A stretch of 64,000 nucleotides of DNA, taken from contig NTJI01000002.1 in assembly GCA_002307375.1 (NCBI GenBank), positions 310,001-374,000 of the forward strand, read 5' to 3'. Position 1 is the first letter of the stretch, and each line of letters opens with the position of its first letter. Below are positions 33,793 to 61,807 of the stretch, one piece after another. This DNA is from Lysobacteraceae bacterium NML93-0399. Lineage in GTDB: Bacteria; Pseudomonadota; Gammaproteobacteria; Xanthomonadales; Xanthomonadaceae. The notes below the pieces were generated by a model. The model saw nothing but the letters and a program-made list of their open reading frames with translations. It did no database searches and was not told the origin of the DNA. The translations under genes were made by a program, and so were the position numbers.

Positions 33793-34257
33793 TCAGGCCG
33801 TGCCCGCTTCGGCCCCACCGCGCTGCAAGGGATCGGGCAGCGGGTCGGCGGCATCGACGAACGACAGCGACACCGAGTTGAGGCAATGGCGCTCGAACGT
33901 CGGCGGCGGACCGTCCGGGAACACATGCCCCAGATGGCTGCCGCAGCGGGCGCAGACTTCCTCGACCCGGATCATCCCGTGGCTGGTGTCGCGGATGCGG
34001 CCGATGTGCGCTTCCTCGTACGGCGCGAAGAAACTCGGCCAGCCGGTGCCCGAATCGAACTTTGCGCTGGAGCGGAACAGCGGCAGACCGCACAGCCGGC
34101 AGCAGTAGGTGCCCTCGCGCTTGTTGTCGAGGAACACGCCGCAGAACGGTGCCTCGGTACCGTGTTGCAGCAGCACGCGGCGCTCGTCGGCGGACAGCCC
34201 GGCTTCCAGCGTGGCGCGCTGTTCGGGGGTGAGCGGCGTGAGATCGAAACGGGACAT
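33793..34257 (-). CDS. msrB: peptide-methionine (R)-S-oxide reductase
   Basis: A 154-residue MsrB. The zinc cysteine pairs are in YCCRLCGLPLF and CARCGSHLGHVF, the substrate region is SGTGWPSFF, and the catalytic cysteine lies in RHCLNSVSLSF. All key residues are intact. It repairs R-methionine sulfoxide in the cytoplasm. The start ATG 34257 has AGGA 5 bases upstream; ATG 34263 is in frame. The C-terminal tail of about 20 residues beyond the core is not conserved in the family. Confidence 0.95.
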   Translation of the reverse strand: MSRFDLTPLTPEQRATLEAGLSADERRVLLQHGTEAPFCGVFLDNKREGTYCCRLCGLPLFRSSAKFDSGTGWPSFFAPYEEAHIGRIRDTSHGMIRVEEVCARCGSHLGHVFPDGPPPTFERHCLNSVSLSFVDAADPLPDPLQRGGAEAGTA

Positions 34258-34400
34258 GGGCATCCTGGCGGCGGCGCGGCGGCGAGCGTGGAACTCCACA
34301 GATGGCGGCAAGCCTGCCGCGTCTCAAGCCGGGCGCGCGTGAACCCGCACACGCGCACGCCCCCGCGTTTCCAGCCCGTAATCAGCGCGAGTTGTCACGT

Positions 34401-34477: not shown

Positions 34478-35281
34478 TCAGGCGCCCTTCGGCCGCGCCA
34501 CTTCGATCCACGTCGGCGCGTGGTCGCTGGCCTTGTCTTCCAGCCGTACCCAGCGATCCACTCCCGCAGCCCGGACGGTCTTCGCCAGCACCGGATTGGC
34601 CAGCAGATGATCGATGCGCAGTCCGCGGTCGCGCTGCGCATGCTGACGGAAGTAGTCCCAGAACGTGTAGACCGTGTCCTCCCCGAACACGTCGCGCAGC
34701 GTATCGGTCCAGCCCTGCGCCAGCAGCGCCTCGAAGGCGGTGCGCACCTCCGGCTGGATCAGCGCATCCTTGCGCCAGGCCTTGGCGTCGTACACATCCG
34801 CATCGGTGGGAATCACGTTGAAATCACCCATCAGCAGCGCCGGATGCGGCAGATCCACCAGCGTCTTCGCATGCCGCTGCAGGCGCGCCATCCACGCCAG
34901 CTTGTAGTCGAACTTCGGCCCCGGCTGCGGGTTGCCGTTGGGCAGATACAGCGCCCCGACGACGACGCCGTGGACCGCCGCTTCGATGTAGCGCGCCTGG
35001 TCGCCCTTCGCACCGCCCGGCAATCCGCGTCGGCTTTCCACCGGCACCGCGCCGCGGCCGAGCAGCGCCACGCCGTTCCACCCGCGCTGGCCCTGCCAGA
35101 TCGCACCGTAGCCTGCCGCCTCCAGCGCCTCCACCGGAAATGCGTCGTCGGCGGCCTTGAGCTCCTGCAGCGCGACGACATCCGGCTTCGATTCCGCCAG
35201 CCACGCCAGCAGGTTCGGCAGCCGCGTCGCGATGCCGTTGACGTTGAAGGTGGCGAGTTTCAGAGTGTTCCGGCGGCTCAT
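34478..35281 (-). CDS. xthA: exodeoxyribonuclease III
   Basis: A 267-residue AP endonuclease/exonuclease of the XthA type. LATFNVNGI opens the fold; ALQELKA carries the metal glutamate, ALYLPNG the catalytic tyrosine region, GDFNVIP the Asp-Asn pair, and KASDHAPTW the terminal Asp-His. It cleaves abasic sites and removes 3' blocks in base-excision repair. GGAG 6 bases before ATG 35281 decides the start over two earlier in-frame ATG codons. Confidence 0.94.
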   Translation of the reverse strand: MSRRNTLKLATFNVNGIATRLPNLLAWLAESKPDVVALQELKAADDAFPVEALEAAGYGAIWQGQRGWNGVALLGRGAVPVESRRGLPGGAKGDQARYIEAAVHGVVVGALYLPNGNPQPGPKFDYKLAWMARLQRHAKTLVDLPHPALLMGDFNVIPTDADVYDAKAWRKDALIQPEVRTAFEALLAQGWTDTLRDVFGEDTVYTFWDYFRQHAQRDRGLRIDHLLANPVLAKTVRAAGVDRWVRLEDKASDHAPTWIEVARPKGA

Positions 35282-35457
35282 GGTGGGCTCCATCACGAAC
35301 ACGCGACGCTAGCCCGTCGCCCGCCGCGTGCGGATGAAAACCGCCGGTCTCTCGCGCGAACTTTCCCGGCGCCAACCCCGTCGCGCGCTGCACGTTGCTG
35401 CGGGCGCGGCAGCGGAGCGCGACCACTGCCGCGCCCTGCAGAACTGGGCGCTGCTCG

Positions 35458-35841
35458 TCAATGGATCATGAAGTCGTAACGACCGCCCACCGGGTGATCG
35501 TCGCCACCCACGACACGCCATTCCACCTGGTAATCGCCTTGCGACAACGCCTGCGCGGGAACAGCGTGAAGGGTTCGGTTCTCGTTGCTGTGGGTGACCG
35601 TGATGTTCTCGACCGGCGTCAGCGTTCGATCACCATTGATCCTGCTCACGGTGACGCGCGAGGCACCCGGTTGCACAGCCCCGTCGAACGTCAGCTCGAT
35701 GTGGTGGAACGCCGACACGTGGCTGTCTGCTGCGGGCGTCGAGGACACCAGGGTGACATGGGCGGAAGCACCGCCAGCGACGACGAGACCGGCAGCAAGC
35801 ACCAGGCCCTGCAGCGCGCGACGCAACAATGGAATAGGCAT
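35458..35841 (-). CDS. copC: periplasmic copper-binding protein CopC
   Basis: A 127-residue CopC. After a signal peptide (about 1-27, ending ASA) the mature protein starts HVTLVSSTPA, placing the N-terminal histidine that binds Cu(II). The second Cu(II) site residues are in GGDDHPVGGRYDF (Asp and His), and FHHIELTF is also typical. No Met-rich Cu(I) loop is seen, so it is the Cu(II)-only variety. It follows copB by 50 bp and closes the copLABC cluster; no copD is present. Confidence 0.9.
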   Translation of the reverse strand: MPIPLLRRALQGLVLAAGLVVAGGASAHVTLVSSTPAADSHVSAFHHIELTFDGAVQPGASRVTVSRINGDRTLTPVENITVTHSNENRTLHAVPAQALSQGDYQVEWRVVGGDDHPVGGRYDFMIH

Positions 35842-35891: not shown

Positions 35892-37397
35892 TCAGAACCA
35901 CAGGCGCACACCGGCCACCAGCCGCGTGTCGCGCGCGTGTCCGCCGGCCGCCAGCGCATAGTCGGCAGTCGCGCCGAATCGTCGCTCATGCACGACGCCG
36001 ACATAGGGTGCGAAGCGACGGCTCAATTCGTACCGTAGCCGGAGGCCGCTCTCGATCTTGCCGAGTCCGGAGCCGATGCCGACATCGGGTTCGCTCTCGA
36101 GCGCGGCCACCGCCTCGACCTGCGGCTGCAGGATCAGGCGGTTGGTGATGCGGATGTCGTATTCGGCCTCGGTCTTCAGCTGCACCTGTCCACCGCTGCC
36201 GACGTAGGCGGTGGCCGAGACCTCGAGAAAATGCGGTGCCATGCCCTGCACGCCGAAAGCGGCCCAGCGACGCGAGTACGGCTGCATGTCCTGGCGTATG
36301 CCCACCACCACATCCCACCAGGGCAGAACGCTGCGGCCGTACAGCAGCTCGATGTCCGCCGAACCGGTACGTCCCCCGTCGCGCTCGCCCTCGCTGCGCA
36401 GCCAGAGCCGGTCGAGGTCGGTACCGAGCCATGCCACGGCCTCCCACGCTTGTCCGGTGCCGTGGGCCGCATCCCAGGCTTCGATCCGGTCGAACACCAC
36501 CATGGAATTGACCGGTGACGCATGCTCCATCGAGTGATGGTGGAGCGCCGGGAAGGCCGCTGCGAAATCGGCTTCGGTCGGCATCGGGATCGGCGTGCGT
36601 GGCGCGCGGGGTGCAGGCATGCGGCAATGCCCCATTGCCTCATGTTCCGGTGTGCAGCCGGCGGACGCTGCAGGCGCGTCGTGGCCATGCGATCCGGTCG
36701 GTGCCTCCGGCAGCGTGCAGTGCCCCATCGCCGCATGCTCCGCCGTGCAGTTGGCGGGCGCAGCAGGCGCGCTGTGGTCGTGCGCTCCAGCCGGTGCCTC
36801 CGGCAGCGTGCAATGCCCCATCGCCGCGTGCTCCGGCGTGCAGCCGGCGGGCGCCGCAGGCGCGCCGTGGTCGTGCGCTCGGGCCGGCATCTCCGGCAAC
36901 GTGCAGTGCCCCATCGCCGCATGCTCCGGTGTGCAGCCGGCAGGCGCCGCATGTCCGCGGTGAGCGTGCGGTTCGGCGGCCGTCTCCGGCAACGTGCAGT
37001 GCCCCATCGCGGCGTGCTCCGGCGTGCAGCCGGCAGGCGCCGCATGCGCGCCGTGGTCGTGCGACCCGGCAGCTGTCTGCGACAGCGTGCAGTGTCCCAT
37101 CGCCACGTGTTCTGGAGTACAGCCGGCGGTCGCAGCAGGCGCGCGGTGGTCGTGCGATCCGGCGGGGGTCTCCGGCAACGTGCAGTGCCCCATCGCTGCA
37201 TGCTCCGGCGTGCAAGCGGCAGGCGCCGCAGGCGTGCCGCGGTCGTGGGCTCCGGCGGGTGTCTGCGGCAACGCGCAGTGGCCCTTCGCCGCATGTTCCG
37301 GCGTGCACGAAGTCGCAGCGGTGGGTGTTTGCGCCAGCGCCATCGGAGCGATACCAGACGCGACTGCGATCGACAGTGCGAGGACGGTGGTCTTCAT
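35892..37397 (-). CDS. copB: outer-membrane copper resistance protein CopB with Cys/His repeats
   Basis: A 501-residue CopB. The C-terminal 220 residues (SMVVFDRIEAWDAAHGTGQA to VAGVRLWF) are the outer-membrane beta-barrel of CopB/PcoB. Between the signal peptide (1-22) and the barrel sit eight tandem 31-residue repeats (31-258), each opening CTPEHAAMGHC followed by a His-rich end such as HDHG. Classical CopB has Met-rich repeats instead. The repeats should bind copper in the periplasm. The start overlaps the copA stop by 4 bp. Confidence 0.92.
   Translation of the reverse strand: MKTTVLALSIAVASGIAPMALAQTPTAATSCTPEHAAKGHCALPQTPAGAHDRGTPAAPAACTPEHAAMGHCTLPETPAGSHDHRAPAATAGCTPEHVAMGHCTLSQTAAGSHDHGAHAAPAGCTPEHAAMGHCTLPETAAEPHAHRGHAAPAGCTPEHAAMGHCTLPEMPARAHDHGAPAAPAGCTPEHAAMGHCTLPEAPAGAHDHSAPAAPANCTAEHAAMGHCTLPEAPTGSHGHDAPAASAGCTPEHEAMGHCRMPAPRAPRTPIPMPTEADFAAAFPALHHHSMEHASPVNSMVVFDRIEAWDAAHGTGQAWEAVAWLGTDLDRLWLRSEGERDGGRTGSADIELLYGRSVLPWWDVVVGIRQDMQPYSRRWAAFGVQGMAPHFLEVSATAYVGSGGQVQLKTEAEYDIRITNRLILQPQVEAVAALESEPDVGIGSGLGKIESGLRLRYELSRRFAPYVGVVHERRFGATADYALAAGGHARDTRLVAGVRLWF
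36624..37307 (-). repeat. eight 93-bp tandem repeats inside copB
   Basis: Eight 93-bp units encode a repeating 31-residue module with fixed Cys-x3-His-x4-His-Cys spacing; the last is truncated after the second cysteine. Divergence is concentrated in the spacer part (Ala/Pro/His), while the CTPEH...GHC core is nearly invariant. Repeat 1 has Lys in place of Met. The in-frame, multiple-of-three unit can expand or contract without frameshift. Confidence 0.95.
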
Positions 37398-39169
37398 GCC
37401 TCGACCCTCACTTCGCGCATCATTCCCGCTTCCATGTGGTAGAGCAGATGGCAGTGGAAGGCCCAGCGGCCCAGCGCATCGGCGCGCACCCGGAAGCTGC
37501 GTTTGCTGCCCGGAGGCATGTCCACGGTGTGTTTGCGCACCATGAAGTTCCCGTCCGCATCCTCAACATCGCTCCACATGCCGTGCAGGTGGATGGGGTG
37601 CGCCATCATCGTGTCGTTGACCAGGACGATGCGCATGCGCTCGCCATAGTTCAGGCGCAGGGGCTCGGCGCTGGCGAACGGGATACCGTCGAACGACCAG
37701 GCGAACTTCTCCATGTGCCCCGTGAGGTGCAGCTCGACCTCGCGTCCGGGCTCGCGGCCGTCCTCGTCCTCGGCCACGCTGTGCAGGTCCCCGTAGGTCA
37801 GCACGCGCCGGCCATTGCCGCGCAGGCCGATGCCGGGATCGTCAAGGCGGTGGGTCGGCGTCATCGTCTGCATGTCCACCAGCGGGTTGCGCGATTCGCT
37901 GGCCGGATGCCGCAGCATGCCGCCACCATGCGCGCCGTGGCCGCCGTGATCACCATGGCCGGCATGTGCGTCGTGGCCGGCGGGCACCGAATGCGCGGCG
38001 TGTGCGCCATGCCCCCCGTGCCCCATGTCGTCCATGGTCAGCAGCGGGCGCGGGTCGTTCGCCGGCACCGGCGCTTCCAGGCCGGCCCGCACGGCCAACG
38101 TGCCGCGGGCATGGCCGGTGCGGCCCATGTCCTGCGCGTAGATGGTGTAAGCGTCCTGCCCTGAGGGTTCGACGATCACGTCGAAGGTCTCTGCCACCGC
38201 GATGCGGAACTCGTCCACGCTCACCGGATGCACCGGCAGGCCGTCGGCCGCGACCACCGTCATCTTCAGCCCCGGAATGCGCACGTCGAAGTAGCTCATC
38301 GCCGAGCCGTTGATGAAGCGCAGCAGCACCTTCTCGCCGCTGCGGAACAGGCCGGTCCAATTGCCCGCAGGCGTGGTGCCGTTGATCAGGTACGTATAGG
38401 TGTGTGCATTGACGTCCGAGAGATCGGTGGGCGTCATCCGCATCTGGCCCCAGGCTCTGCGATCGGCCACCGTCGCGCGCAAGCCGTCGCGGCGCACGTC
38501 GCGGACGAAATCGCCCACCGTCGGCTTGTAGTAGTTGTCGTACTCGGCGTACTGCTTGAGCCGGCGGAACAGGCGGCCGGGATCAAGATCGGTCCAGTCC
38601 GAAAGCAGCACCACGTGCTCGCGATCCCAGCGGTAGGGCAAGGGCTCGATCGGATCGACGATCAGCGCGCCGTACAGGCCCGCCTGTTCCTGGAACAGTG
38701 AATGGCTGTGATACCAGTACGTCCCCGACTGGTTCAGCGTGAACCGGTACTGGTAGGTCTCACCCGGGTGGATGCCGTTGAAGCTCAGGCCGGGCACGCC
38801 GTCCATGTTGGCCGGCAGGATGATGCCGTGCCAGTGCAGCGAGGTCATCGCGTCGGGCAGCCGGTTGGCCACGCGCAGGGTCACGGTATCGCCCTGCCGC
38901 CAGCGCAGGATCGGCGCGGGCAGACTGCCGTTGACCGTCATCGCGGGCCGCACGCGGCCGGTGAAGTTGACCGGCGACGCGCCGATGGACAGATCGAACT
39001 CGGTACCGCGCAGCACCTGCGGCCCCAGACGCGCGTCATCGTCGGCCGCAATCGCAGGCAGGCGCAGGCCCGCCGTTCCGAGGGCCAACCCACCGAGGGC
39101 CAGCCCCTGGACGAAACGGCGGCGCGACTGCAGCGCGCCGTGCGCCCGCTCGAAGGAATCGTGATTCAT
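37394..39169 (-). CDS. copA: multicopper oxidase CopA
   Basis: A 591-residue CopA/PcoA-type multicopper oxidase. It has a twin-arginine signal (SRRRFVQGLALGG), so it is exported folded. Copper ligands are all present: LHWHG, YWYHSHS, HPIHLHGMW and the T1/trinuclear motif FHCHLLYHMEAGM. Residues about 385-420 hold a His/Gly/Met-rich loop (GHGGHGAHAAHSVPAGHDAH) likely to store copper. It oxidises Cu(I) in the periplasm. AGGAG 5 bases before ATG 39169 fixes the start; an in-frame GTG lies two codons upstream. Followed by copB with a 4-bp overlap. Confidence 0.95.
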   Translation of the reverse strand: MNHDSFERAHGALQSRRRFVQGLALGGLALGTAGLRLPAIAADDDARLGPQVLRGTEFDLSIGASPVNFTGRVRPAMTVNGSLPAPILRWRQGDTVTLRVANRLPDAMTSLHWHGIILPANMDGVPGLSFNGIHPGETYQYRFTLNQSGTYWYHSHSLFQEQAGLYGALIVDPIEPLPYRWDREHVVLLSDWTDLDPGRLFRRLKQYAEYDNYYKPTVGDFVRDVRRDGLRATVADRRAWGQMRMTPTDLSDVNAHTYTYLINGTTPAGNWTGLFRSGEKVLLRFINGSAMSYFDVRIPGLKMTVVAADGLPVHPVSVDEFRIAVAETFDVIVEPSGQDAYTIYAQDMGRTGHARGTLAVRAGLEAPVPANDPRPLLTMDDMGHGGHGAHAAHSVPAGHDAHAGHGDHGGHGAHGGGMLRHPASESRNPLVDMQTMTPTHRLDDPGIGLRGNGRRVLTYGDLHSVAEDEDGREPGREVELHLTGHMEKFAWSFDGIPFASAEPLRLNYGERMRIVLVNDTMMAHPIHLHGMWSDVEDADGNFMVRKHTVDMPPGSKRSFRVRADALGRWAFHCHLLYHMEAGMMREVRVEA

Positions 39170-39285
39170 ATGCACTCCTGACGCTGCGCCGTGCGCAGCG
39201 ATTCTGATGGCGTTCGGGACACCGCGAACATGGATGTCCTGCGGAAGGTCCCGGCAACGCTGCGCATCCGCGCAGCACTACGTCG

Positions 39286-39690
39286 TCAGGCGGAGATCGG
39301 GGGGCGCAATAGGAGATGCGGCCGCATAGTGGCCGGCGCCACAGGCCCGGCCACCGGCACGGTGGACGCGGACGGCATCACCGCCACGCCATCGGTGGCC
39401 GCCACCAGCGCCTGGAAATGCTGCATACACAGTTCGAGGCAGAGGGTGCGACAGTCCTCGTCCTGGTCATCGGCGACCTGCGGAAGCTGTCCCGCGATGG
39501 GTTCAACCGGCATCGCACGCCCGGAATGGGGGCAATGCGCATCCGTGGCCGGCGATGCGTCCACCGGCGCCTTCGTTGCCTCGACAGCCTGGATATCCAT
39601 GCTTGCCACGTGAGCGGACGCCACTGCCGACGCCATGCCGTTCAACAGCAGCGTCACACAGAGCAGCACATGGAAGAGCGCGTGTTTCAC
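39286..39690 (-). CDS. copL: CopL-family metal-binding regulatory protein
   Basis: A roughly 134-residue exported protein, starting most likely at GTG 39690 (VKHALFHVLLCVTLLLNG is the signal). The mature part holds spaced metal residues (DAHCPHSGRAMP, EDCRTLCLELCMQHF) and ends in LLLRPPISA; the CMQH and RPPI elements are shared with Xanthomonas CopL, which is needed for copper-induced expression of copAB. The gene lies 116 bp upstream of copA on the same strand, the expected copLAB order. No strong ribosome-binding site is seen, so the start is uncertain. Confidence 0.78.
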   Translation of the reverse strand: MKHALFHVLLCVTLLLNGMASAVASAHVASMDIQAVEATKAPVDASPATDAHCPHSGRAMPVEPIAGQLPQVADDQDEDCRTLCLELCMQHFQALVAATDGVAVMPSASTVPVAGPVAPATMRPHLLLRPPISA

Positions 39691-39944
39691 ACGAGGCGGC
39701 AGCGGAGGCGGCGCGGACGGGGCACGGAATAGTAGCCCAAGGCACGCACAAGCCGCTCTCTGCGCGTCGCCGCATTCATCTGCAACGCCGGCACTTGCGG
39801 ACAGGCGTGCATGCGGAACGGAGGCCGACGACGAAGCGCAGCCCGGATCGTCGGCGCCCACTGCGCGCATCCGAGCCGCGTCATCCCAGGTGCGCTCGCA
39901 ACGACGCCTGGCGCCGTCAGCCTCGTTGCCGATTACCATGCGCG

Positions 39945-40874
39945 ATGCCTCAGGACCTTGCCTCAACACTCCGCAGGCGCCTCGGCCTCGCGCCGCCCGT
40001 GTCCGTCGCGTTCGAGCGCGGCGCCATGACCCCGTTCGACGGCTACACCCGGCAGCGCATCGAGTACCGCGGCCTCGAAGGCGACACCATTCCGGCCTTC
40101 CTGTTCACGCCCACGGCGCAGCCCGCCCGCGGCGGCGTCGTGGTCTTCCACCAGCACAACGGCGAATTCCACTTCGGCAAGAGCGAAATCGCCGGCCTCG
40201 TGGGCAGCCCGTTCCAGGCCTTCGGCCCCGCGCTCGCGCGCCGCGGCCTCGCCGTTCTCGCACCGGATGCGCTCACCTTCGAAGATCGCCGTGGCAAGGT
40301 ATCGGGCGTGGAGCCGCACGACTACGACTGGCTCCAGCACTACCGCGCCATGAGCTATCGCCTGCTGGATGGGGACACGTTGATGCGCAAAGGCCTCGAC
40401 GACGCCCAGCGGGCGTTGAGTGTGCTGATCGACGCGGCCGCGCTGGACGAACGCCGCGTCGGCATCGCAGGACATTCCTACGGCGGCTGCACCGCGCTCT
40501 ACCACGCCGCCGTCGATCCAAGATGCCGCTTCGCCTGCATCAGCGGCGCGGTGTGCAGCTTCGAAACGCGTCGCCGCGAAGAGACCGGTATCACCCTGTT
40601 CGAAGCCGTGCCCGGCCTCGCGCAGCTCATCGACACGCACGATGTGCTGGCGGCCATCGGTCCTCGTCCGACGCTGGTCGTGTCAGGCACCGAAGACAAA
40701 TACTCGCGCGATGCGGATCAGGTTGTCGCCAAGGTGGCCGGGGACTTCATCACCGAGCTTCGCGTCGAGCGTGGGCATGCGCTCGATCAGGAGCGGTTCG
40801 ATGCGATCGTTGAGTGGATTAGCAATCGCGTATCGCACAATCAGGCCGACAAACCTAGTCCTCGCATCAGCTAG
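39945..40874 (+). CDS. dienelactone hydrolase/acetyl-xylan-esterase-like alpha/beta hydrolase
   Basis: A 309-residue cytoplasmic alpha/beta hydrolase. GVVVFHQHNGEFHFGKSEI is the oxyanion region, GIAGHSYGG carries the nucleophile serine, the acid is in VVSGTEDKYSRD, and the histidine in VERGHALDQERF. The fold most resembles dienelactone hydrolase and BAAT-like esterases. Substrate unknown. ATG 39945 is chosen as the first ATG before the domain. It is divergent from copL and marks the boundary where GC content drops. Confidence 0.82.
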   Translation: MPQDLASTLRRRLGLAPPVSVAFERGAMTPFDGYTRQRIEYRGLEGDTIPAFLFTPTAQPARGGVVVFHQHNGEFHFGKSEIAGLVGSPFQAFGPALARRGLAVLAPDALTFEDRRGKVSGVEPHDYDWLQHYRAMSYRLLDGDTLMRKGLDDAQRALSVLIDAAALDERRVGIAGHSYGGCTALYHAAVDPRCRFACISGAVCSFETRRREETGITLFEAVPGLAQLIDTHDVLAAIGPRPTLVVSGTEDKYSRDADQVVAKVAGDFITELRVERGHALDQERFDAIVEWISNRVSHNQADKPSPRIS

Positions 40875-47631: not shown

Positions 47632-47779
47632 AGGCGTGCTGCAGGTGGTGGCCGCTATTCGCCGAGGTCAGGTGACAGGCTCGCGCCAGGCTTGCGTAGG
47701 TCATCTCGCATCGGGGCTGCACGCTTGGCCGGGGTTGCGGCAAACGGTTCGATTGCGTCGATGTGCGGCTCGCGCAGTG

Positions 47780-48480
47780 TTCTTCGCCTGCGTCCGAGGT
47801 GACGGCGCCTGACGCTTCGCCCCCACCCAACCCTCCCCCGCTTGCGGGGGAGGGCTTCGAGCTGCGGCGCATGTCCGGCGTCTTCGTAGAGGATAGGAGC
47901 CGCGCAAGCATGCCTTCCCCCGCTTGTGGGGCATTGCGCCCTTTACGGGTGGAAGGTTGGATGGGGAAGACGATCCGCTCGCACCAACCGTCGGTTTCAG
48001 CGCATCGTTCGTCGCCTGCGTCCGAGGTTGCGGCGCCTGACGCTTCGCCCCACCCAACCCTCCCCCGCTTGCGGGGGAGGGCTTCGAGCTGCGGCGCATG
48101 CCGGGCCTCTTCGTGGAGGACAGGAACCGCGCAAGCACGCCTTCCCCCGCTTGTGGGGCATTGCGCCCTTTACGGGTGGAAGGTTGGATGGGGAAGACGA
48201 TCCGCTCGCACCAACCGTCGGTTTCAGCGCATCGTTCGTCGCCTGCGTCTGAGGTGACGGCGCCTGACGCTTCGCCCCCACCCAACCCTCCCCCGCTTGC
48301 GGGGGAGGGCTTCGAGCTGCGGCGCATGTCCGGCGTCTTCGTACAGGAGCCGCGCGAGTAAGCCTTCCCCCGCTTGCGGGGCATTGCGCCCTTTACGGGT
48401 GGAAGGTTGGATGGGGGCGAACGGTCGGCTTGCGCCGGCGTCCGGTTCGAGCAAGGCGTTCGTCATCTGCGTTTGATGAG
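47780..48480. repeat. tandem array of a ~228-bp unit
   Basis: Three copies of a unit of 227-228 bp start at about 47780, 48008 and 48236; the third decays after about 48416. Each unit contains a perfect palindrome CCTCCCCCGCTTGCGGGGGA(GG) and a second related stem CTTCCCCCGCTTGTGGGGC. Copies differ by only a few bases; the third has a short deletion near CTTCGTACAGG. The surrounding 1,025 bp (47632-48656) contains no convincing gene; open frames in the array are repeat artefacts. Confidence 0.88.
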
Positions 48481-59551: not shown

Positions 59552-61807
59552 ATGACTCGAACCTGCCGTTCCCTCCCCGCGCCCACGCGCCTTGCCGTCG
59601 CTCTGGCAATGGTCCTGCCGGCCGCCGCCTTCGCCCAGTCCGGTTCCCAGACCCATGCGCACCCGACCACCCTCGACCGCGTCCAGGTGACCGCCACGCC
59701 GCTCGGCGGCGATGCCGAGGACCTCGCGCATCCGGTCGAGGTGCTGTACGGCGACGCGCTCGAAGACCGCAAGGCCGGCAATCTCGGCGACACGGTGTCT
59801 TCCCTGCCGGGCGTGCAGAGTGGCTTCTTCGGCACCGGCGTCGGCCGGCCGATCATCCGCGGTCAGGAAGGCCCGCGCGTGCAGGTGCTCTCCGGCGGCA
59901 TCGGCAGCATGGACGCCTCGACGGTCAGCGCCGACCACGCGGTCAGCATCGAGCCCTTCCTCGCCGACCAGATCGAGGTGCTCAAGGGCCCGGCCAACCT
60001 GCTCTACGGCAGCGGCGCGATCGGCGGCGCGGTGAACGTCGTCGACGGGCGCATCGCCCGCGCCGTGCCCGACCGTCCGCTCAGCGGCCGCGCCGAACTG
60101 CGCGCCGGCAGCGGCAACGACGAGCGCAGTGGCATGTTCCGCCTCGATGGCGTCAGCGGCGACAACCTCGTGCTGCACGTCGACGGCCTGATCCGCAACA
60201 CCGGTGATTTCGACATCCCCGGTTTCGCACAGGTCCAGGACGACCACGACCATGATCATGACCACGATCACGACCACGGGCATTCCGACGAGGAACCGGC
60301 CTACGGCACCCTGCCCAACAGCTCGATCCGCACCCGCGCCGGCGCGGTCGGCGCCACCTGGTTCGGCGAGCGCGGCCATCTCGGCGTGGCGCTGAGCACC
60401 TATCGCACCAACTACGGCCTGCCCGACGGCGCGCACGTGCACGCGCACGACGAGGACGAAGGCGGCCATGACCACGGCCACGATCATGACCATGACCATG
60501 ACCATGACCACGGGCATGACCATGACCACGATCACGGCGGCGACGACCACGCGCACGATCACGGGTCGGTCCGCATCGACATGGTCCAGAACCGCGTCGA
60601 CGTGAAGGGCGGCATCTACGACCCGCTGCCGTTCCTGAGCGCGCTCAACCTGCGCGCGGCCTACAACGACTACGAGCACGTCGAACTCGAAGGCGGCACC
60701 GCGGCGACCCGCTTCACCAACAAGGGCACCGAGGCGCGCCTGGAAGCGGTGCAGACCCCGATCGCCGGCTGGCACGGCGCGTTCGGCCTGCAGGTGGGCC
60801 ACGTCGACTTCAGCGCGGTGGGCGCCGAAGCCTTCGTGCCGCCGAGCGTCACCGACACCATCGGCCTGTTCGCGGTGCAGGAAAAGGAATTCGGCCCGGT
60901 GAAGCTGGAATTCGGCGGCCGCCACGAACGCGTGGAGATCGACCCGGTCGCCGGTGAATCGCGCAAGTTCGACGCCAGCAGCCTCTCGGGTGCGGCGATC
61001 TGGCACCTGTCGGACGTGTTCGACCTGCGCTTCGGCGCTGACGTGTCCGAGCGTGCGCCGACCAACGAGGAACTGTTCGCCGCCGGCCCGCACATCGCCA
61101 CGCGGTCGATCGAGATCGGCGATGCGGACCTCGACACCGAACGCGGCCAGCGTCTGGAAGTGGGCCTGCATGCACACACCGACCGCGTCGAGTTCAAGGC
61201 CGCCGTCTACCAGACCAAGTTCAAGCGCTTCACCTATCTCGCCGACACCGGCGTGGCCGAGCAGGGTTTCCCGGTGCGGCTGTGGACCCAGGGCGATGCG
61301 ACCTTCCGCGGCGCCGAAGCCGAGGCCAAGGTGCATCTGGTGCAGTCGGACGCGGGCGACTTCGACCTGCGCGTGTTCGGTGACATCGTGCGTGCCGACC
61401 TCGACGGCAGTGGCACCCGCCATGTGCATTTCGACGTGCCGCATGGCGACCACAGCCATCACTACCACGCCGACATCCCGCTGGGGGGCAACCTGCCGCG
61501 CATCGCACCCGCGCGCTATGGCGCCGACCTCAACTGGACGGCCGGCGGCTGGCGCGCCAACGTCGGCGCGGTGCGCTACCAGAAGCAGGACCGCGTGGCT
61601 GAACTCGAAACGCCGAGCCCCGGCTACACGCTGGTCAATGCCGGTGTCGCCTGGCGCGTCGGTGAAGCGGACGGCACGCAGTGGGAGCTGTTCCTCGACG
61701 GCCGCAACCTGACCGATCGCGAAGCGCGTCCGCACACCTCGCTGCTGCGCGACTACGCGCCGCTGCCGGGCCGCACCGTGGCCGGCGGCATCCGCGTCTA
61801 CTTCTGA
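59552..61807 (+). CDS. znuD: ZnuD-type TonB-dependent zinc receptor
   Basis: A 751-residue outer-membrane receptor. After the signal peptide comes the plug (about 40-170; LDRVQVTATPLGG, GVGRPIIRGQEGPRVQVLSG), then a 22-strand barrel ending VAGGIRVYF. Two extracellular loops are runs of His/Asp: DDHDHDHDHDHDHGHSD (229-245) and a longer HDHGHDHDHDHDHD stretch (about 308-335), which should capture zinc. This matches neisserial ZnuD. Zur control is likely from the operator-like site upstream. A long hairpin terminates it. Confidence 0.9.
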   Translation: MTRTCRSLPAPTRLAVALAMVLPAAAFAQSGSQTHAHPTTLDRVQVTATPLGGDAEDLAHPVEVLYGDALEDRKAGNLGDTVSSLPGVQSGFFGTGVGRPIIRGQEGPRVQVLSGGIGSMDASTVSADHAVSIEPFLADQIEVLKGPANLLYGSGAIGGAVNVVDGRIARAVPDRPLSGRAELRAGSGNDERSGMFRLDGVSGDNLVLHVDGLIRNTGDFDIPGFAQVQDDHDHDHDHDHDHGHSDEEPAYGTLPNSSIRTRAGAVGATWFGERGHLGVALSTYRTNYGLPDGAHVHAHDEDEGGHDHGHDHDHDHDHDHGHDHDHDHGGDDHAHDHGSVRIDMVQNRVDVKGGIYDPLPFLSALNLRAAYNDYEHVELEGGTAATRFTNKGTEARLEAVQTPIAGWHGAFGLQVGHVDFSAVGAEAFVPPSVTDTIGLFAVQEKEFGPVKLEFGGRHERVEIDPVAGESRKFDASSLSGAAIWHLSDVFDLRFGADVSERAPTNEELFAAGPHIATRSIEIGDADLDTERGQRLEVGLHAHTDRVEFKAAVYQTKFKRFTYLADTGVAEQGFPVRLWTQGDATFRGAEAEAKVHLVQSDAGDFDLRVFGDIVRADLDGSGTRHVHFDVPHGDHSHHYHADIPLGGNLPRIAPARYGADLNWTAGGWRANVGAVRYQKQDRVAELETPSPGYTLVNAGVAWRVGEADGTQWELFLDGRNLTDREARPHTSLLRDYAPLPGRTVAGGIRVYF

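Follow-up and report, generated by a model that had tools for sequence, protein, structure and literature searches.

A string of cysteine-flanked repeats on an outer-membrane CopB protein as candidate copper-binding beads

The copB gene of Lysobacteraceae bacterium NML93-0399 encodes, ahead of the barrel that defines its protein family, an array of eight equal modules in which a histidine- and methionine-containing core is bracketed by two cysteines. Our preferred reading, to which we give slightly better than even credence, is that the array forms eight portable copper-binding beads on a disordered tail extending from an outer-membrane CopB/PcoB channel into the periplasm. As read from the sequence, the anatomy is that of a signal-like start, eight equal modules, a PcoB-type barrel, a copLABC cluster, paired cysteines, and the gain or loss of a whole unit. 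Membership in the CopB family is clear, and the chemistry of the tail is a variant without a description in the literature searched. The window referred to below is the whole stretch of DNA analyzed, 64,000 nucleotides in length, and its relevant features are collected in Table 1.

Table 1. The cop cluster and the repeat array, in positions of the window
Feature	Position	Strand	Description
copC	35458..35841	(-)	PF04234 E=6.5e-19
copB	35892..37397	(-)	501 aa: signal peptide, then eight modules (aa 31-258, N-terminal), then an outer-membrane barrel of PcoB type (aa 297-501)
array of eight 93-bp units (31 aa)	36624..37307	(-)	core C-x-x-E-H-x-x-M-G-H-C; Tandem Repeats Finder and translation
copA	37394..39175	(-)	multicopper oxidase; TIGR01480 996.5 bits, E=4e-300
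copL-like	39286..39690	(-)	small secreted Cys-containing protein; NF033807 CopL_fam 48.9 bits, cut-off 40

The four cop genes form a row on the minus strand in the order copL-like, copA, copB, copC, and the copA stop and copB start share four bases (ATGA). CopA carries a Tat signal (TAT_signal_seq 18.1 bits, cut-off 16.7), and its insert is rich in His but lacks the Cys module. The copL-like reading frame was profile-scanned as 39286-39969, its GTG start is a guess, and its protein matched no Pfam family. For copC, the model NF033814 scored 87.4 bits, below its cut-off of 95, and the start at ATG 35841 is also a guess. Downstream of copC on the same strand are a SelR-domain gene (methionine sulfoxide reductase B type, 33793-34311) and an Exo_endo_phos gene (exonuclease III-like, 34478-35302). 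Farther away on the plus strand, a gene for a TonB-dependent receptor (PF00593 and PF07715, 59552-61807) includes repeats at 60239-60538 that read Asp/His-rich in frame, and this protein is possibly a metal uptake receptor.

The initial annotation named the protein CopB, and this assignment is secure. The Pfam CopB domain PF05275 covers residues 298-501 (262.3 bits versus a cut-off of 27, E=3.6e-78), and a copA-type multicopper oxidase adjoins the gene. A PDB sequence search matched residues 292-501 to the barrel of Escherichia coli PcoB (PDB 7pge, E=6.1e-54), and AlphaFold2 predicts 12 strands within residues 297-500, where block pLDDT is at least 81 from residue 301 onward. The signal peptide was assigned by eye, and a Pro-rich linker separates the array from the CopB domain. 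A Cys-free, Met/His-rich tail is usual in the family without defining it. The tail of the window CopB has 16 Cys, and we call the protein a variant because the family is defined by its barrel. The prediction for the full protein, built from an alignment of 15 rows, has a mean pLDDT of 66.8 and a pTM of 0.46. It places one five-residue helix turn in every module (8/8), which counts as weak evidence because the module blocks have pLDDT values of about 52-75 and because of the shallow alignment and the pTM. Block pLDDT drops to 28-31 in the linkers between modules, and this low confidence is compatible with disorder.

Tandem Repeats Finder reports the array with a period of 93, 7.4 copies, 82% matches, and 0% indels. 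The translation contains eight C-x9-C cores, each 31 residues from the next and each built around H-x-x-M-G-H, that begin at CopB residues 31, 62, 93, 124, 155, 186, 217, and 248. Every one of the 16 cysteines of the protein lies inside these cores. The exact motif pattern matches the window seven times and not one of 100 shuffles, and the copy it misses is the first, in which Lys replaces Met (CTPEHAAKGHC). The eight 31-residue Cys/His modules that had been described from the letters alone are thus real. Their core, however, is not as fixed as was claimed: apart from the first unit, unit 7 reads CTAEHAAMGHC and the x-x positions differ in units 3 and 8, although Cys1, Thr2, Glu4, His5, Ala7, Gly9, His10, and Cys11 are invariant across all eight. 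The same account gave each unit a His-Asp-His tail, which is exact in units 2, 3, 5, and 6 but reads HDR in unit 1, HAH in unit 4, and HGH in unit 7, and is lacking in unit 8. The codons of the invariant core residues vary synonymously, except that Cys11 uses a single codon, and at most linker positions the codon differences change the residue. At the sequence level, selection on the core together with slack on the linker would give such a pattern.

A PDB search with a single 31-residue unit yielded nothing up to E=10. With the whole protein, the one match of the repeat region was a weak phmmer hit to ankyrin 1n11_A (E=0.0017, residues 60-193), which we attribute to chance, as T-P-x-H-x-A happens to resemble the ankyrin consensus. 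Ankyrin repeats were rejected given that no ankyrin model in Pfam matched up to E=1, that the unit has 31 and not 33 residues, and that the predicted helix turns are only five residues long. A separate tandem repeat in the window (47772-48416; 227-bp unit, 2.9 copies, 92% matches in Tandem Repeats Finder) has a GC-rich, palindrome-like stretch in its unit.

The relation of the module to the classical repeat was examined in 62 CopBs of the genus that were chosen by their barrel, independently of the motif. They contain 238 H-x-x-x-[GD]-H cores, among which 68 have both flanking Cys, 169 have neither (cores of any kind, Met- or His-rich), and one has a single Cys, so that in 237 of 238 the two Cys occur as a pair or not at all. 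Within 69 C-x9-C stretches of these proteins, His5, Gly9, and His10 are each found 68 times and Met8 is found 63 times. The number of tail Cys is twice the number of modules in 16 of 17 CopBs, and the exception has its extra Cys in the stretch of the signal peptide. A broader collection of 95 rows, drawn from the family of the window and fetched in part by the motif itself, gives 82 x-H-x-x-x-G-H cores with both Cys, 67 with neither, and one with a single Cys. The residue before the His is Glu in 70 of the 82 cores with a Cys pair and Asp in 51 of the 67 with neither Cys. The module therefore looks like the classical (M)D-H-x-x-M-G-H repeat plus two Cys, mostly with Glu for Asp. A Cys on each side probably makes the classical D-H-x-x-M-G-H repeat softer and its binding tighter.

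These modules had been proposed to stand in CopB instead of Met-rich repeats. The addition of the Cys pair is upheld, but we reject a complete replacement, as H-x-x-M-G-H is kept in 7/8 units, that is, in all but the first. The genome also encodes a second CopB, with 48% identity across query residues 159-501. Its tail consists of successive M-D-H-S-x-M-D-H repeats, and its sole tail Cys falls in the signal peptide stretch. Because this second protein is Met-tailed, the Cys-tail and Met-tail versions coexist in one genome.

Unit number varies among relatives by whole modules. In-frame change in copy number, which was anticipated from the 93-bp unit, is seen in the close relative G326, with nine units versus eight in the genome of the window, a difference that might also reflect an assembly collapse in the latter given the 94% identity between G326 units 6 and 7. 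The remaining eight G326 units pair one to one with those of the window at 97-100% DNA identity, and the G326 CopB is identical to that of Lysobacteraceae bacterium NML93-0793 (L158). Two other relatives have four units (G028) and three units (G162), and in another (G337) two contigs break off within the array. There are also signs of decay: one protein (G378, L231) retains a single relic module that has lost its second Cys beside a long His-rich expansion, and a CopB of the same clade (G232b, L244) has an in-frame stop (TAG). Some CopBs of this clade have no module Cys and are His-rich, so the cysteines are dispensable for the job of the barrel.

A single change between Cys and non-Cys tails is unsupported. 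The barrel-only tree of the genus needs at least three changes, counted in either direction with gain and loss indistinguishable; starred branches force two of them, and trees with one change make up 0% of 200 bootstraps. In this tree G232b and G378 were scored as having no module, and G337 was read only for the 120 residues before the barrel because its contig ends in the array. A wider quick tree gives 10 changes, five of them forced, and the figure of 10 may be too high, as at least one row (L236) was miscalled module-free through a misplaced domain start.

The genus survey comprised 52 genomes, 47 of them with CopB, and 62 CopB places. Seventeen of the 62 CopBs carry the module, in 2 to 9 copies each. 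A second CopB is present in nine of the 17 genus genomes with a Cys tail versus five of the 30 with CopB but without a counted Cys tail, the latter including two genomes (G232 and G378) that each have a decayed copy. The exact motif occurs in 22 of 395 genomes and four of 54 genera in the family sample, and in four of 398 genomes in the phylum sample. Two of these four belong to the family of the window (its own genome included) and two to a second family (f45). A sample of that second family centered on G434 has the motif in 36 of 249 genomes and 24 of 96 genera, and we take it to be Sphingomonadaceae because the scan of named genomes is dominated by Sphingomonadales. All of these genome fractions are lower bounds, as the pattern demands Glu and Met and misses variants such as C-T-P-A-H-A-A-M-G-H-C. 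The reversed pattern gave 0 in every row listed of the family, phylum, and second-family samples. With such frequencies, the claim of the initial annotation that Cys-rich sites of this sort are unusual is not supported as it was put, and the genus, family, second-family, and named-genome surveys reject the idea that it is unique to the genome of the window.

The scan of named prokaryote genomes yielded at least 284 exact matches in at least 119 stretches. Among the 284 matches listed, 168 lie in CopB ORFs, 96 in CopA ORFs, and 19 in other ORFs, and one runs across a stop and is judged a chance match (by elimination, L083). The module is also found in many Sphingomonadales CopBs and CopAs and in a few other secreted proteins. 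Six of the 12 other ORFs among the matches listed run off the end of their locus and look like cut CopB tails. Five more are distinct proteins: a DUF305 protein of Sphingomonas parva (L102, E=1.6e-36) whose C-terminal end is one module, a small protein (L069), two lipoprotein-like tails (L080 and L164), and a protein from a Rhodothermales MAG (L161) that has two modules and, close to the N terminus, another stretch rich in Cys and Met. The L161 protein has no Pfam family, and the four further ORFs scanned at its locus gave no match to a copper gene family. One additional match (L100) was judged to be probably due to chance. In the module-bearing CopAs examined, the module sits where the CopA of the window is His-rich and its paralogue is Met-rich. 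None of 110 distinct CopA ORF stretches from the family of the window carries the module; 60 of these stretches are partial and some are different cuts of one gene.

The outer-membrane barrel is common to the window CopB and the PcoB proteins of E. coli (7pge) and Caulobacter. In the available portions of their descriptions, the tails of the latter two are presented as His-/Met-rich, in contrast to the 16 Cys in eight modules here. According to the accessible text on Caulobacter vibrioides, the His/Met tail of PcoB is a disordered segment that very likely points into the periplasm, and pcoA and pcoB overlap by four bases, like copA and copB here (PMC12509749). The same text reports that removal of most of the PcoB tail raises both copper sensitivity and cell copper, that mutation of the tail His or Met raises cell copper while growth under copper is not worse, and that the tail tolerates swapping and stabilizes PcoA (PMC12509749). 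Which way copper moves through PcoB is disputed, with the excerpts available favoring uptake in the 7pge paper (PMC9210255) and efflux in the other (PMC12509749). In those excerpts, cysteine occurs only in a mass-spectrometry setting in PMC12509749 and the word is absent from PMC9210255. The alignment in the former paper comprises 13 homologues, among them one from Sphingobium cupriresistens.

The CopBs of Xanthomonas and Pseudomonas plasmids belong to the same family and share the copA-copB order and a D-H-x-x-M-G-H core. The four examined (three from Xanthomonas and one from Pseudomonas) have 0 Cys each, with Asp before the first His versus Glu here. A standard Cys repeat in characterized CopBs, which would have refuted the initial annotation, is not seen in these four. 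The Sphingobium sp. YG1 plasmid pYGP1 has the same module in three copies in CopB and one in CopA. Its copies are fewer and unevenly spaced and its CopA also bears the module, unlike the 110 CopA stretches from the family of the window. The available parts of two further papers make no mention of cysteine for copB of Xanthomonas citri pv. mangiferaeindicae (PMC13115771) and no mention of the word motif for the copper-induced copB of Pseudoxanthomonas spadix (PMC10667631). No description of a Cys module in CopB was found in the literature covered, which consisted mostly of titles and abstract openings with subscription journals largely outside. Exported Csp1 proteins are a precedent in that they store Cu(I) on Cys outside the cytoplasm, as proposed for the CopB tail, but the accessible account describes Csp as a folded four-helix bundle (PMC7558416), whereas the tail is predicted as short turns and low-confidence linkers. 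Membership in Csp was rejected on the lack of a predicted Cys-lined four-helix bundle in the tail, and PDB sequence searches with CopB and with a single unit revealed no relation to Csp.

If the modules are copper-binding beads, each might hold about one copper ion, probably Cu(I), via its Cys pair with help from His and Met, and the His-Asp-His of the linker could take Cu(II). The string would buffer periplasmic copper beside the oxidase CopA and pass it to the barrel or keep it near, and copy number would set the copper capacity. The Cys tail would in this manner do the job of the Caulobacter PcoB tail with softer ligands, near the Cu(I) oxidase CopA and the mouth of the barrel. The copper context favors this reading, in that 264 of the 284 matches listed lie in CopB or CopA ORFs. 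So do the place of the module in CopA, the retention of His and Met along with the Cys pair, the agreement of tail Cys with module number, the predicted helix turns, and the effects of the Caulobacter tail. Several points count against it. Some CopBs of the same clade do without the cysteines, the Caulobacter His or Met mutants grew no worse under copper, the helix turns are weak evidence, and the direction of transport through PcoB is disputed. The Rhodothermales protein has two modules with no copper gene family at the scanned ORFs of its locus, and the periplasm oxidizes thiols, so that C-x9-C may be a disulfide loop.

This last point is the basis for the main rival explanation, which we consider unlikely but still worthy of serious attention. 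DsbA oxidizes periplasmic cysteines, and an oxidized C-x9-C might clamp H-x-x-M-G-H into a small ring that binds copper through His and Met, with the cysteines serving only to pre-organize the site or to shield the tail from proteases. The pairing of the cysteines at one spacing, the oxidizing compartment, and the fact that H-x-x-M-G-H alone is a classical copper repeat are all consistent with such loops. However, oxidized Cys would not ligate metal, yet 264 of the 284 matches listed are in CopB or CopA ORFs, and C-x9-C rings would seem wide for a rigid clamp. Furthermore, the His and Met are kept along with the Cys pair, which argues for more than a mere disulfide, as this would need neither.

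The remaining explanations fare worse. A redox or copper switch, the alternative raised in the initial annotation, would have the pairs oxidized at low copper and reduced or metallated at high copper, thereby opening the tail or signaling to CopA or the barrel. Paired Cys beside a copper oxidase would suit such a device, but no thiol-disulfide exchange partner was recognized among the cop genes and the three downstream genes scanned, and a unit number of 2 to 9 fits capacity better, leaving the switch improbable. Slightly more doubtful again is a module mainly for another soft metal such as Ag, Hg, Cd, or Zn. Cys2/His2 sites do bind many soft metals, but the cluster consists of copL, copA, copB, and copC, and the same 264 of 284 matches listed belong to CopB or CopA, the family scan of the other ORFs having covered four of 12. 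Finally, drift of a slippage-prone repeat that grew without function is hardly credible despite the varying unit number and the decayed gene (G232b) and relic module (G378) in relatives, because the core residues are conserved despite synonymous variation in their codons and the same core persists in distant CopB and CopA lineages.

To us, the most interesting part of the bead interpretation is its portability, as the 11-residue core appears in CopB, in CopA, and rarely in other secreted proteins. We suggest, with more reservation than for the array itself and aware that the idea could well fail, that C-x-x-E-H-x-x-M-G-H-C might be a portable copper module of the periplasm, so far undescribed, that folds on Cu(I). 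It would have been joined to two or more unrelated folds of copper resistance (the CopB barrel and the CopA oxidase), to a DUF305 protein, and to lipoprotein-like tails, with copies added or removed in frame to adjust capacity. CopB is common among copper-resistance proteins, and how it works is disputed. Countable, separable Cys beads would allow a direct test of whether its tail binds Cu(I) or Cu(II), as well as tests of whether thiols survive in a copper-stressed periplasm and whether more units mean proportionally more capacity. The module would also provide a short signature for proposing a copper function for unannotated secreted proteins.
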